From positions 1-35,290 of IMG/VR virus record IMGVR_UViG_3300020166_000058: a stretch of DNA of 35,290 nucleotides. The stretch is one strand, 5' to 3'. Position 1 is the first letter of the stretch, and each line of letters opens with the position of its first letter. Origin of the DNA: a virus. Both the position numbers and the translations under genes were made by a program. Shown here in pieces: positions 27,970 through 30,955 of the stretch. The notes under the pieces are model-generated. The model did no database searches and had not been told where the DNA came from. It saw only the letters and a list, made by a program, of their open reading frames with translations.

Positions 27970-28219
27970 CGTACACCCCCATGATTCCCGGGTTGATCCA
28001 CTCGAACCTCAGCCCGTTGTCATCGAGCAGTTTATTGAGATCTGGGCTACCCCAGAACATCTCGTAATAATCCGCGTAGTACCACGGGCCAGATGGGTTT
28101 AGAGGCATGCCGCCTTCTGCGGCAATCTCGAAGTGCGCGTGATCAGTGAACCTGCATTCGTTGCGCACTATTGGTACGCCTGCAGATTTAAGTACTGCTC
28201 TTGCTTTTATCCAACTCAT
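27962..28219 (-). CDS. Unknown aromatic-rich phage protein (85 aa)
   Basis: ATG at 28219 overlapping the previous stop (ATGA), with GGGAGG upstream. The sequence begins MSWIKARAVLKSAGVPIV and contains GPWYYADYYEMFWGSPDL and LLDDNGLRFEWINPG, an unusually Tyr/Trp-rich small globular protein. No membrane segment or known motif is visible. It is translationally coupled to the 40-residue gene before it. Confidence 0.65.
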   Translation of the reverse strand: MSWIKARAVLKSAGVPIVRNECRFTDHAHFEIAAEGGMPLNPSGPWYYADYYEMFWGSPDLNKLLDDNGLRFEWINPGIMGVYDA

Positions 28220-28338
28220 GATGCACCTCCCATGAGTAGTTTTTTAAGTTCCGCAATATCGCGGCCACTGATAAGCGCGAGTCGCGCCATTGTGATATTG
28301 GTGCTGTCGAACAGGTCGACGATTTCTTGATTTGTCAT
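28216..28338 (-). CDS. Tiny HTH-like protein (40 aa) behind a hammerhead
   Basis: ATG at 28338, with the GAGACGACC leader ending five bases upstream and a type I hammerhead (28367-28420) just before that. Product MTNQEIVDLFDSTNITMARL followed by ALISGRDIAELKKLLMGGAS, which has the helix-turn-helix-like rhythm of a single small DNA- or RNA-binding unit. Its stop overlaps the next start (ATGA). It is the first gene of the distal mRNA segment produced by ribozyme cleavage. Confidence 0.7.
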   Translation of the reverse strand: MTNQEIVDLFDSTNITMARLALISGRDIAELKKLLMGGAS

Positions 28339-28366
28339 GATGGTCGTCTCATTAACGTGGTGGATT

Positions 28367-28420
28367 CCACAGACGCCTCTCGGCGTTTCGTTCACTATCC
28401 AAGTGATCTCATCAGTGTGG
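28367..28420 (-). ncRNA. Hammerhead ribozyme, type I (HHR-5), 5' of the 40-aa gene
   Basis: Minus-strand RNA: stem I CCACA (28416-28420) pairs with UGUGG (28367-28371). CUGAUGA is at 28409-28415. Stem II (28390-28408) pairs G-C, then UCACU with AGUGA, with one A-A mismatch. GAAA is at 28386-28389. Stem III is CGCC-GAGA-GGCG (28374-28385), a GNRA-capped hairpin. U at 28373 and C at 28372 complete the GUC triplet. Predicted cleavage is between 28372 and 28371. The stop codon of the upstream gene (28412-28414) is the first UGA of CUGAUGA. UGUGGAAUCCACCAC after the cut can refold as a hairpin. Confidence 0.93.
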
Positions 28421-28597
28421 GGTCATTAAATCTGCGTCGGTAAACCTGAAGGCGATCTTGATCAGCGGTGACTCGGTCACGTAGACCCAGCCGCTCTCGT
28501 ATCGCAGCTCGATCACACGTTGGTGCCGAGCCAGACCATCGAAGAAGACATCGCCGACTTGCCAGCGTGGGCGGTTAGGGATCATTTCGCTCATCAT
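28412..28597 (-). CDS. Unknown small protein (61 aa) ending inside a ribozyme core
   Basis: ATG at 28597 overlapping the stop of the 149-residue gene (ATGATGA). A small beta-barrel-like sequence: RPRWQVGDVFFDGLARHQRV, then IELRYESGWVYVTESPLIKI. Its last codons (CCA CAC TGA) form part of stem I and the CUGAUGA core of the hammerhead at 28367-28420, so its coding sequence and the ribozyme are constrained together. Function is unknown. Confidence 0.75.
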   Translation of the reverse strand: MMSEMIPNRPRWQVGDVFFDGLARHQRVIELRYESGWVYVTESPLIKIAFRFTDADLMTPH

Positions 28598-29043
28598 GCT
28601 GCTTGCTCCTTCACGTAATCGGACCAGCTCATTACAAGGCCGTCGATGCAGACCTCTCGCTTCATGGCTTCGCGTGCTTGACCTTTGCCGACAATCCATG
28701 ACTCTCGGGTGTAATCGAAGTCATCGAACTCGCAATGAGCGATGCGATGGGCAAGCCAGCAGTCTACGCCACGCTCGATGAAGGTGGGGTGCTGGTATTC
28801 GGAGCAATGGTCTCGAACATTGAAGAACGCTTCTTCGCACTCAGCGATGTCAATAATTTCCTCAACGAACATGTCGTTGTTGATTTTCACCAGTGCGGCG
28901 AGTTTGTATTTATCACGAGGGTTGCAGGTGAAGATGAACGTGTCTCCACCTTTTGGTTTCCAGCGCTGAGGGCACTCACCCTCGCCGTCCCAGTCGTGAG
29001 CGCCGTAGTTTTCATAGGTTTGAGTTTGAATAATTACTTTCAT
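28594..29043 (-). CDS. Unknown phage protein (149 aa) of a recurrent phage family
   Basis: ATG at 29043 directly after AAAGGAGACGACC. Starts MKVIIQTQTYENYGAHDWDG, then GECPQRWKPKGGDTFIF, a pattern I recognise from uncharacterised proteins in many phage early regions. The middle (EEIIDIAECEEAFFNVRDHC) is acidic, and the end (CIDGLVMSWSDYVKEQAA) helical. It is soluble with several Cys/His but no clear metal motif. It follows the type II hammerhead, and a second gene is coupled to its stop. Confidence 0.8.
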   Translation of the reverse strand: MKVIIQTQTYENYGAHDWDGEGECPQRWKPKGGDTFIFTCNPRDKYKLAALVKINNDMFVEEIIDIAECEEAFFNVRDHCSEYQHPTFIERGVDCWLAHRIAHCEFDDFDYTRESWIVGKGQAREAMKREVCIDGLVMSWSDYVKEQAA

Positions 29044-29071
29044 GGTCGTCTCCTTTGACGTTTAAGGATCT

Positions 29072-29127
29072 GCCTCATCAGTGCCCGGGGATCAGTCCGG
29101 GTCAGACGCCCCGGGGGGCGTTTCGGC
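29072..29127 (-). ncRNA. Hammerhead ribozyme, type II permutation (HHR-4), 5' of the 149-aa gene
   Basis: Minus-strand order: stem II 3' strand GCC (29125-29127), GAAA (29121-29124), stem III CGCCC-CCCG-GGGCG (29107-29120), U 29106, C 29105 (GUC triplet). Stem I is a hairpin (29082-29104) pairing UG with CA and CCCGG with CCGGG around a bulged A and an 8-base loop. CUGAUGA (29075-29081) follows, then stem II 5' strand GGC (29072-29074). Predicted cleavage is between 29105 and 29104. Stem II has only three G-C pairs before an A-A mismatch, so it is the least certain of the five. The upstream stop UAG (29127-29129) touches stem II. Confidence 0.78.
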
Positions 29128-29393
29128 TAGTGTGCTCTAGGGATAAGGTTCCCCCGTCCTTGCTCGAGCAGGGCGAGGAACTCAGCTACCGTACCGGGGA
29201 AGGCAGCAGCAGCCTCGTTGAACTCAACGATGTCGCCGAGCAGCGTGTTCTCGCAGTCGAGAATCCCCCGGTCAAAGGCCATGGCTTGCACCCGGCCCCA
29301 TTCGGTGTCGTCTTGCTGGTTAAGCACACTGCGTGCGATGCGTTGCTCGAGGGGCTTCTTACCGAAGCCTTTAAGTTTGATTACTCTGTCCAT
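29127..29393 (-). CDS. Unknown small phage protein (88 aa)
   Basis: ATG at 29393 with the AAAGAGACGACC leader four bases upstream. Begins MDRVIKLKGFGKKPLEQRIA and continues as alternating helices (GDIVEFNEAAAAFPGTVAEF, then LALLEQGRGN). It is released as its own ~322-nt RNA if the flanking type I and type II ribozymes both cut. No family is recognised. Confidence 0.75.
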   Translation of the reverse strand: MDRVIKLKGFGKKPLEQRIARSVLNQQDDTEWGRVQAMAFDRGILDCENTLLGDIVEFNEAAAAFPGTVAEFLALLEQGRGNLIPRAH

Positions 29394-29421
29394 AATGGTC
29401 GTCTCTTTAGCGTGGTGAATT

Positions 29422-29475
29422 CCACATACGCCTCACGGCGTTTCATCGGGTATTCAGCCCGAATCATCAGTGTGG
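29422..29475 (-). ncRNA. Hammerhead ribozyme, type I (HHR-3), 5' of the 88-aa gene
   Basis: Minus-strand RNA: stem I CCACA (29471-29475) with UGUGG (29422-29426). CUGAUGA at 29464-29470. Stem II (29445-29463) pairs UCGGG with CCCGA around a 7-base loop, with a U-U at the base. GAAA at 29441-29444. Stem III CGCC-GUGA-GGCG (29429-29440). U 29428, A 29427, giving a GUA triplet. Predicted cleavage is between 29427 and 29426. Stem I begins immediately after the UAA stop of the 26-residue gene. The basal U-U may lower activity. The following GUGGAAUUCACCAC can form an alternative hairpin. Confidence 0.9.
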
Positions 29476-29556
29476 TTAGCCTAGAATGTAAAAGACCAGA
29501 ATGTAGGCAGAGAGCCCACACCCGATCGTCCAGTGCGCGATATCCATGTTGGTCAT
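29476..29556 (-). CDS. Tiny single-span membrane peptide (26 aa)
   Basis: The ATG at 29556 overlaps the stop of the preceding gene (ATGA), and the UAA stop touches the first base of the hammerhead at 29475. The product starts MTNMDIAHWTIGCGLSAYIL and ends VFYILG, so residues 9-25 are a membrane-spanning segment. Coupling to the 119-residue gene and the exact fit between two features support a real gene. Function is unknown. Similar short phage membrane peptides can modulate host envelope proteins. Confidence 0.65.
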   Translation of the reverse strand: MTNMDIAHWTIGCGLSAYILVFYILG

Positions 29557-29912
29557 GCCGCCACCTGACTGCATGCCTTAGCGACTTCATGACCTGCTTG
29601 AGTCAGGTACTTGGGGCCGGTGATTTTCATGCGTCCCGTGAGTTCCGGCAGTTGCACGGTGACAAACTTGAGAGGCTCCACCGTATCACCGGTATCGGTG
29701 CAATAGACACCTTGATCGTCCCACCCCAGATCAGTGCGACCGCTGACATCGAGCACTTGCACGCTCAGCGTCCTGCCTTCGAGCTCGTAGTACCGACTCC
29801 AATCGAGTATGCAGATCCGAATTGCGCCTTCGACTGCATCGAAAATTGAAGCGTCTCGCCCGTAACTCGAACCGCCGCCGATGCGGATAATTGCTAAATA
29901 GTCTTTTTTCAT
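29553..29912 (-). CDS. Unknown phage protein (119 aa)
   Basis: ATG at 29912, four bases after AACGAGACGACC. A longer in-frame extension to 29987 would run through the ribozyme and is rejected. The sequence MKKDYLAIIRIGGGSSYGRD, then VEGAIRICILDWSRYYELEG, looks like an alpha/beta fold. The C-terminal part (LTGRMKITGPKYLTQAGHEV) ends in a helix resembling a small winged-helix. It follows the best-formed type I hammerhead and is coupled to the 26-residue membrane peptide. Confidence 0.8.
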   Translation of the reverse strand: MKKDYLAIIRIGGGSSYGRDASIFDAVEGAIRICILDWSRYYELEGRTLSVQVLDVSGRTDLGWDDQGVYCTDTGDTVEPLKFVTVQLPELTGRMKITGPKYLTQAGHEVAKACSQVAA

Positions 29913-29941
29913 AATGGTCGTCTCGTTAATCGTGGTGAATT

Positions 29942-29995
29942 CCACAGACGCCCGTGGGGGCGTTTCGCCTGAGTCTCGCAGGCTCATCAGTGTGG
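29942..29995 (-). ncRNA. Hammerhead ribozyme, type I (HHR-2), 5' of the 119-aa gene
   Basis: Minus-strand RNA: stem I CCACA (29991-29995) with UGUGG (29942-29946). CUGAUGA at 29984-29990. Stem II GCCUG-7-CAGGC (29967-29983). GAAA at 29963-29966. Stem III CGCCC-CCAC-GGGCG (29949-29962). U 29948, C 29947, giving a GUC triplet. Predicted cleavage is between 29947 and 29946. All core bases match the consensus and no stem has a mismatch. Stem I begins at the base after the UAA stop (29996-29998) of the upstream gene. GUGGAAUUCACCAC follows the cut and can refold as a hairpin. Confidence 0.96.
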
Positions 29996-30553
29996 TTAGA
30001 AGTTGAAGTCGTGAAAGGCGTATGGCTCAGTCTGAAGCGTGAAGCGAACACCCTTATGCGTCCATTGGCTATTGCTACCTTTGCATCGTCGGATGCGGAT
30101 GACCTCATTGTCTGGGTTGGATGTGTAGGTGACCTTTTGATTGTGCTGGTCTACTACGTGACCGAAGAAGCCGCCTGATACTTGCTTGCAATCGCCGATG
30201 TGGTGGTCGCTGTCAACACGTCGAATCTCAATCGTTTTGCGGGACACGACTCTGACGATCTCCCAAGCTCGTTTGTCTGAGTACATATGCTCAGTTGCGT
30301 GCGTGAAGTTTTTCTCCCGGCTGCTGACTTTCCAGCGTTTCTCGCACTGTACATGCAGTGCGTGGGCTTTAGCTTCTTCAGATTTGGATGGGTCGTCGAT
30401 TATCGCGTCTAAAAACTTATCGAAGCTTTCGTCCTCTTCTATAGCGGCTTCGTGTGCCTCTCCGGGGCTGTAATAAATCTTGTTTTTTTCTTCCCAGACT
30501 CCGGGGTTTCTCCAGCTCTGGTTCTGAATTACATATTGCGCTTGTATATACAT
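29996..30553 (-). CDS. First protein of the ribozyme operon, unknown phage family (185 aa)
   Basis: ATG at 30553 directly after GGAGACGACC. The frame extends to 30592, but the extension is ribozyme sequence. Starts MYIQAQYVIQNQSWRNPGVW. The middle is acidic and helical (EAHEAAIEEDESFDKFLDAI). The second half is a beta domain (REKNFTHATEHMYSDKRAWE, then IVRVVSRKTIEIRRVDSDHH, GSNSQWTHKGVRFTLQ). The C-terminal half resembles a phage protein type I have seen in many early regions, without known function. Its stop directly abuts the type I hammerhead. Confidence 0.82.
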   Translation of the reverse strand: MYIQAQYVIQNQSWRNPGVWEEKNKIYYSPGEAHEAAIEEDESFDKFLDAIIDDPSKSEEAKAHALHVQCEKRWKVSSREKNFTHATEHMYSDKRAWEIVRVVSRKTIEIRRVDSDHHIGDCKQVSGGFFGHVVDQHNQKVTYTSNPDNEVIRIRRCKGSNSQWTHKGVRFTLQTEPYAFHDFNF

Positions 30554-30565
30554 GGTCGTCTCCAT

Positions 30566-30619
30566 TGACGTTTCGGCGATACTGCGCCTCATCAGGCCAA
30601 CTGATAGTTGACTACGTCA
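30566..30619 (-). ncRNA. Hammerhead ribozyme, type III permutation (HHR-1), in the operon 5' leader
   Basis: Minus-strand order: stem III 5' strand UGACGU (30614-30619), A 30613 (GUA triplet), stem I hairpin GUCAAC-UAUCA-GUUGGC (30596-30612, one G-U), CUGAUGA (30589-30595), stem II GGCG-CAGUAU-CGCC (30575-30588), GAA (30572-30574) and stem III 3' strand ACGUCA (30566-30571). Predicted cleavage is between 30613 and 30612, removing ~140 nt of leader after initiation near 30756. Every core base is present. The start codon of the first gene lies 12 bases downstream of stem III. Confidence 0.95.
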
Positions 30620-30762: not shown

Positions 30763-30791
30763 ATAATAATCGCGGTATTCGCGATTGTCAA
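30763..30791 (-). promoter_or_regulatory. Strong sigma-70 promoter of the ribozyme operon with palindromic spacer
   Basis: Minus strand: -35 TTGACA (30786-30791), exactly 17 bp, -10 TATTAT (30763-30768), matching consensus at 6/6 and 5/6. The whole spacer (30769-30785) is the palindrome ATCGCG-AATAC-CGCGAT, a likely operator that would block the promoter when bound. Predicted start is around 30756. Confidence 0.85.
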
Positions 30792-30920: not shown

Positions 30921-30945
30921 GCCCGGTCCTCCCGGGCTTTTTTTT
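30921..30945 (+). terminator. Rho-independent terminator before the late genes (tR'-like)
   Basis: GCCCGG-TCCTC-CCGGGC (30921-30937) is followed by eight T residues (30938-30945). It sits 11 bp before the first late gene, so the late operon cannot be expressed from upstream without read-through. This fits antitermination by the Q-like protein. Confidence 0.9.
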
Positions 30946-30955
30946 GGCTATTGGC

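Follow-up and report, generated by a model that had tools for sequence, protein, structure and literature searches.

Hammerhead ribozymes of all three permutations in one phage operon and a proposed rule linking ribozyme type to position

Clusters of hammerhead ribozymes in phage DNA were published in 2011, and the available text of Perreault et al. (PMC3088659) describes several hammerheads bordering single genes or blocks of genes in prophages “on many occasions”, including sets in Agrobacterium tumefaciens, Azorhizobium caulinodans and Clostridium scindens. For three sets it reports in vitro cleavage of tandem constructs of about 2 kb, for one triple set cleavage in Escherichia coli, and for a halovirus early transcript a 5′ end mapped to within 3 nucleotides (nt) of a hammerhead site. 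Bacterial self-cleaving ribozymes are enriched in one another's vicinity and around Mu-like phage genes for an unknown reason, as cited in the accessible part of Eckert et al. 2023 (PMC10085705). The engineered RiboJ, an sTRSV hammerhead combined with a 23-nt hairpin, raises both mRNA and protein (Clifton et al. 2018, PMC6206723). Here we analyse five hammerhead ribozymes that punctuate one leftward operon of the IMG/VR virus record IMGVR_UViG_3300020166_000058 (35,290 bases; “the window”) and compare them with ribozyme arrays in other viral contigs. The function of phage and bacterial hammerheads has been open since 2011, and the statistics presented below offer a specific and checkable answer, namely hairpin-capped mRNA ends inside operons.

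Five hammerhead cores and the operon that carries them

Five complete hammerhead cores lie on the minus strand between 30,619 and 28,367, in the order III, I, I, II, I. All five carry CUGANGA, GAAA and NUH with A15.1-U16.1, and three stems in type I, II or III order join each of them. Our scanner, which combines CTGANGA, GAAA and NUH with three pairing stems in all three cyclic orders and on both strands, returned exactly these five matches over the 35 kb, with scores of 36-42.5, and no other. Dinucleotide shuffling of the window (60 times) yielded 0.017 matches per shuffle at a score of at least 30 and none at 32 or above, while related loci shuffled in trinucleotide blocks (1.08 Mb) yielded zero. 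An initial annotation made from the sequence had proposed these five cores, and the independent scanner recovered every one of them, with nothing of similar score in the shuffles; the cut sites, fragment sizes, permutations (one III, three I, one II) and leader positions given there also agree with ours.

The Rfam search suggested in that annotation bore it out in part. The type II site passed the gathering threshold (46.3 bits, E = 1e-6), while the type III site remained below it (31.4 bits, E = 0.0013). Two of the type I sites matched RAGATH-1-hammerhead weakly (20-23 bits), and the remaining one had no match. The Rfam models are poorly suited to type I forms. A covariance model trained in this study on type I ribozymes from elsewhere (45 sequences of other contigs), with this phage and its near relatives excluded, matched the type I sites at 29947, 29427 and 28372 over their full length (53.8, 44.0 and 44.9 bits; E = 6e-16, 1e-12 and 7e-13) and the type II and type III sites partially, in the shared core only, so that covariance-model matches exist at all five positions. 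Near-identical contigs have the same ribozyme set; the relatives L009 and L018 are 99.8% and 99.97% identical. Along the minus strand the operon is laid out as follows (aa, amino acids; ORF, open reading frame).

30763..30791, minus strand: sigma-70-like sequence TTGACA-N17-TATTAT (11/12 matches), predicted promoter
30768-30786, minus strand: palindrome AATCGCG-AATAC-CGCGATT filling the promoter spacer, possible operator
30566..30619, minus strand: Hammerhead 1, type III, cut 30613/30612 (scanner, 31.4 bits; stems present in the minimum-energy fold)
29996..30553, minus strand: gene 1, ORF of 185 aa, weak family match to phrog_19789
29942..29995, minus strand: Hammerhead 2, type I, cut 29947/29946, beginning right behind the gene 1 TAA (scanner, 53.8 bits)
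29932..29946, minus strand: predicted post-cleavage 5′ hairpin GUGG-AAUUCA-CCAC (fold), exclusive with stem I
29553..29912, minus strand: gene 2, ORF of 119 aa, no match in the family search
29476..29556, minus strand: gene 2b, hydrophobic ORF of 26 aa, overlapping the gene 2 stop (ATGA)
29422..29475, minus strand: Hammerhead 3, type I, cut 29427/29426 (GUA), beginning right behind the gene 2b TAA (scanner, 44.0 bits)
29412..29426, minus strand: predicted post-cleavage 5′ hairpin GUGG-AAUUCA-CCAC (fold)
29127..29393, minus strand: gene 3, ORF of 88 aa, no match in the family search
29064..29128, minus strand: Hammerhead 4, type II, cut 29105/29104, overlapping the gene 3 TAG (scanner, 46.3 bits)
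28594..29043, minus strand: gene 4, ORF of 149 aa
28412..28597, minus strand: gene 4b, ORF of 61 aa, coupled to gene 4 (ATGATGA)
28367..28420, minus strand: Hammerhead 5, type I, cut 28372/28371 (scanner, 44.9 bits)
28357..28371, minus strand: predicted post-cleavage 5′ hairpin GUGG-AAUCCA-CCAC (fold)
28216..28338, minus strand: gene 5, ORF of 40 aa

Hammerhead 1 comes first in the operon, about 145 nt 3′ of the promoter and with no convincing gene upstream. Hammerheads 2-5 (I, I, II, I) all lie on upstream stop codons, and the UGA that ends gene 4b is at the same time U4-G5-A6 of the Hammerhead 5 core. Possible contacts between stems I and II can be seen by sequence in leaders 3 (GAAU/AUUC), 5 (GGAU/AUCC) and 4 (GAUC/GAUC, where loop I of Hammerhead 4 could pair with the 3′ tail) and are not clear in leaders 1 and 2; leaders 3 and 5 differ here in a compensating manner. 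The operon seems to run on to about 26935 without more ribozymes. Its genes are small and received no confident function from the family search. Relatives of gene 4 are common in viral contigs; they proved a poor route to further ribozymes, as nearly none have any.

Ribozyme type, gene ends and RNA ends in phage arrays

Scanning viral contigs for DNA patterns supplied the loci for comparison, which do not form a random sample. The set comprises at least 302 nonredundant loci, each holding between 1 and 15 ribozymes and at least 115 holding two or more; the median spacing within arrays is 616 nt, and the ribozymes share one strand in 115 of 116 loci. One unrelated contig (L333/L374) has the array III-I-II-I-II and likewise contains all three permutations. 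The initial annotation had regarded hammerheads as mostly single copies and the arrangement in the window as possibly undescribed. Both statements have to be withdrawn in view of the sets published in 2011 (PMC3088659), the multi-ribozyme loci and L333/L374; what remains of its operon reading are the ribozymes, their permutations and leader positions and, as the best interpretation, segmentation of the RNA. Covariation counts were set aside as evidence because the scanner itself selects for pairing.

Two regularities link ribozyme type to position. They were noticed first and then checked on later scans, with predictions written beforehand only for the last scan. Type III came first in all 16 nonredundant mixed arrays of the first set (product of 1/n = 4e-9), every type III preceded any type I or II in 3/3 mixed arrays from new scans, and type III was ahead in two of three in the pre-stated scan, giving 21/22 in total; the order is strong, not absolute. 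Stop-codon adjacency, defined as a stop codon within -12..+8 of the ribozyme and expected for 8% of random positions, was seen for 154/190 type I, 23/29 type II and 5/57 type III ribozymes in the first set, for 36/39, 119/184 and 6/32, respectively, in loci from the new scans, and for 5/7 type I and 4/63 type III ribozymes in the pre-stated set. Types I and II therefore range from 65 to 92% in the two large sets and type III from 6 to 19%. The core UGA itself is the stop codon of the upstream gene in 42 of 240 type I ribozymes, and promoter-like sites lie upstream of 10/53 type III ribozymes vs 2/119 internal ribozymes of types I and II.

Where type III does have a gene upstream (n = 48), a hairpin lies between the stop codon and the cut (median -17.3 kcal/mol, z -2.1). 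The corresponding z was 0.0 for type III without such a gene (n = 42) and -0.1 for types I and II (n = 455; p = 3e-5 and 1e-12). Among type III ribozymes with an upstream gene in the pre-stated set, 54/57 fell below -10 kcal/mol (median z -2.2), and a strong separate hairpin is present in 93/105 cases when both sets are pooled. This hairpin ends 0-11 nt from the cut, and there is therefore no room for a promoter between them.

On the downstream side of the cut, stem I persists as a 5′ hairpin in types II and III. For type I, the freed 3′ strand of stem I is complementary to a nearby downstream segment in 63/190 ribozymes, compared with 30 +- 5 after permutation, and in 40/149 vs 19 +- 4 outside the common stem sequences. 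In the window, each of the three type I leaders can form a GUGG-N6-CCAC hairpin, and a 5′ hairpin before the ribosome site is predicted on the cleaved mRNA for 5/5 window leaders. Loop II of type I pairs with the 3′ tail just after stem I in 62/190 ribozymes vs 20.7 +- 3.8 permuted, a pseudoknot that was described in 2011.

Several observations on individual relatives stand apart from these statistics. The longest array among the loci listed, L466 (1-6100), packs 15 hammerheads, all of type I or II and almost uniform in their stem II, into about 6 kb. The Streptomyces phages Hank144 (L605), Pablito (L607), Daudau (L608) and R4 (L606) have 8, 8, 5 and 3 type II hammerheads, respectively, located between small genes towards one end of the genome, and the counts vary among these related phages; in the stretches retrieved, the annotated features are all coding genes, leaving the ribozymes unannotated. 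The hairpin AGUGUCUUCAAAGACACU and its variants recur in the gap that separates the stop codon from the type III ribozyme in L280, L468, L618, L635, L636, L671, L672 and L683. BLAST searches of the window operon, L315, L002, L105 and L466 against isolated phages gave no match, and a strict type I pattern found only two matches in prophages of named genomes.

Probable segmentation of the transcript and alternative readings

We consider it probable, judging from sequence, that the operon RNA is segmented during transcription into mRNAs with hairpin-capped ends. One RNA of this leftward, early-type operon would start at about 30757, and five hammerheads, each preceding a single gene or a coupled gene pair, would cut it during synthesis into a leader of about 145 nt and mRNAs of about 666, 520, 322, 733 and more than 1400 nt. 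The permutation at each junction would fit the needs of both new ends. Where types I and II lie just behind a stop codon, the upstream mRNA would retain their closed stem III as a hairpin, 2 nt away from its new 3′ end, like a terminator stem that does not halt the polymerase, and type III, whose open stem III would leave no upstream hairpin, would be placed at sites lacking an upstream gene. Each downstream mRNA would begin with a 5′-OH and at once a hairpin (stem I for types III and II, GUGG-N6-CCAC for the three type I ribozymes), followed by the ribosome site. The likely outcome would be separate, end-protected mRNAs with differing levels, a natural terminator-plus-RiboJ. From the cores, their positions, the independent model matches and the statistical rules we infer cleavage, protection of the ends and differential expression. 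With slightly less confidence, we lean towards a general grammar of RNA ends, in which every upstream mRNA released by a cut would end in a 3′ hairpin, supplied by the ribozyme's own stem III on the stop codon for types I and II, while type III would stand without an upstream gene or behind a separate hairpin. The ribozyme would then serve as a terminator substitute that caps both ends while transcription is not stopped.

A number of points weigh against segmentation or the grammar. The gene ends used in the statistics are those of mechanical ORFs. The pre-stated direct contrast between type III with and without an upstream gene, with only n = 6 no-gene cases, gave p = 0.14. Some of the hairpins upstream of type III may be terminators; by a fold-based measure, 2/39 have a terminator-like T tract. 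Locus L644 (I-III-I-I) breaks the order rule, yet its type III has an upstream hairpin; together with arrays made of type III alone, which are common, it rules out the absolute form that type III always comes first. The enrichment of post-cleavage 5′ hairpins is limited to about one third of type I ribozymes. Moreover, in minimum-energy folds, leaders 2 and 3 in their uncleaved form favour the downstream hairpin over stem I; cleavage of these leaders may therefore require fast folding, or they may be partly inactive. Owing to their stem II mismatches at 10.1/11.1 (U.U) in the 29427 site and A.A in the 28372 site, these two ribozymes may also be slower than the rest.

The same folds could be read as signs of regulated switches, in which ribosomes ending the upstream gene, the downstream CCAC strand or a ligand would control cleavage and single genes would be turned on or off. 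The downstream CCAC competes with stem I in the predicted folds, the core UGA of leader 5 is the upstream stop, as in the 42 type I cases above, so that terminating ribosomes sit on the ribozyme, and regulated cleavage was raised in the available text of Perreault et al. (PMC3088659). However, the leaders are without a conserved ligand-binding domain, the ribozymes are minimal and compact phage genomes also yield stop-codon adjacency, and we regard this explanation as unlikely. Quite improbable, in our assessment, is a spread of ribozyme leaders as mobile or recombination cassettes, linkers between cargo genes with little effect on expression. The varying gene identities, the gene 4 relatives without ribozymes, the differing counts among related Streptomyces phages and the resemblance of the start-associated repeats to the start-associated sequences (SAS) of cluster K mycobacteriophages would all suit such cassettes, but the cores are intact while the stems vary in sequence among relatives (in a sample chosen for pairing), and the rules on permutation and hairpins are difficult to account for unless the ribozymes act at the RNA level. 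Finally, cutting might be followed by ligation of the segments into circular or spliced RNAs, as hammerheads act in circular RNA replication elsewhere and permuted pairs could in principle ligate. We give this very little credence, since such products were sought and not found according to the available text of Perreault et al. (PMC3088659) and the stems differ among the five window sites, with no match for ligation.

Should segmentation into hairpin-capped mRNAs be right, these ribozymes would be natural parts for splitting synthetic operons. Cultured, sequenced phages such as Streptomyces phage Hank144, with its eight unannotated type II hammerheads, allow testing.

Start-associated sequences and comparison with known systems

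Each of the five ribozymes is followed by a short repeat at the next start codon.

30551..30562, minus strand: start-associated sequence GAGACGACCATG, with further copies before the starts at 29924, 29405, 29052 and 28350
27524 and 21682 (minus strand), 22860 (plus strand): 9-base start-associated sequence GAGACGACC, found at genes without ribozymes too

The window holds eight copies of GAGACGACC vs 0.3 expected for a 9-mer, with one behind each of the five ribozymes. Just 5′ of stem III of the type III ribozyme, AUGGUCGU (30628-30621, minus strand) is complementary to ACGACCAU (30550-30557) at the first start codon, and this pairing is present in the predicted fold. The first start codon may in this way be hidden in the uncleaved RNA, and the released leader could pair with the same start-associated sequence in other leaders. 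The blocking idea is a lead only, the relatives L009 and L018 being too similar for comparison. Elsewhere in the window, an intrinsic-terminator-like hairpin with T8 (30921-30946, plus strand) lies just 5′ of a rightward gene start in the divergent promoter region, and a large left-arm protein at 1115-2872 has family matches to DarB-like antirestriction, endolysin and virion RNA polymerase proteins (shared domain) and no match in a search against phages.

In cluster K mycobacteriophages, a short repeat lies a few bases before many start codons and overlaps the ribosome site (Pope et al. 2011, PMC3203893). GAGACGACC is like this SAS in its position before starts and over the ribosome site, whereas the letters of the two repeats differ and the extended SAS consists of inverted repeats, not ribozymes (PMC3203893).

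The window resembles the clusters in the available text of Perreault et al. 2011 (PMC3088659) in that genes of a phage operon are flanked by several same-strand hammerheads of types I-III, and differs from those described there in combining five hammerheads and all three permutations within a single unit. The position rule, stop-codon adjacency and 3′ hairpin do not appear in that text, Figure 3 aside. Clustering in phages is likewise shared with the enrichment cited by Eckert et al. 2023 (PMC10085705), whose accessible part gives no rule of order or of ends. As with RiboJ (PMC6206723), cleavage of the window leaders is predicted to leave a 5′ hairpin ahead of the ribosome site; RiboJ, however, is engineered, single and promoter-proximal, without a role for the upstream RNA end. 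What looks new here is the organising rule that links ribozyme type to position.

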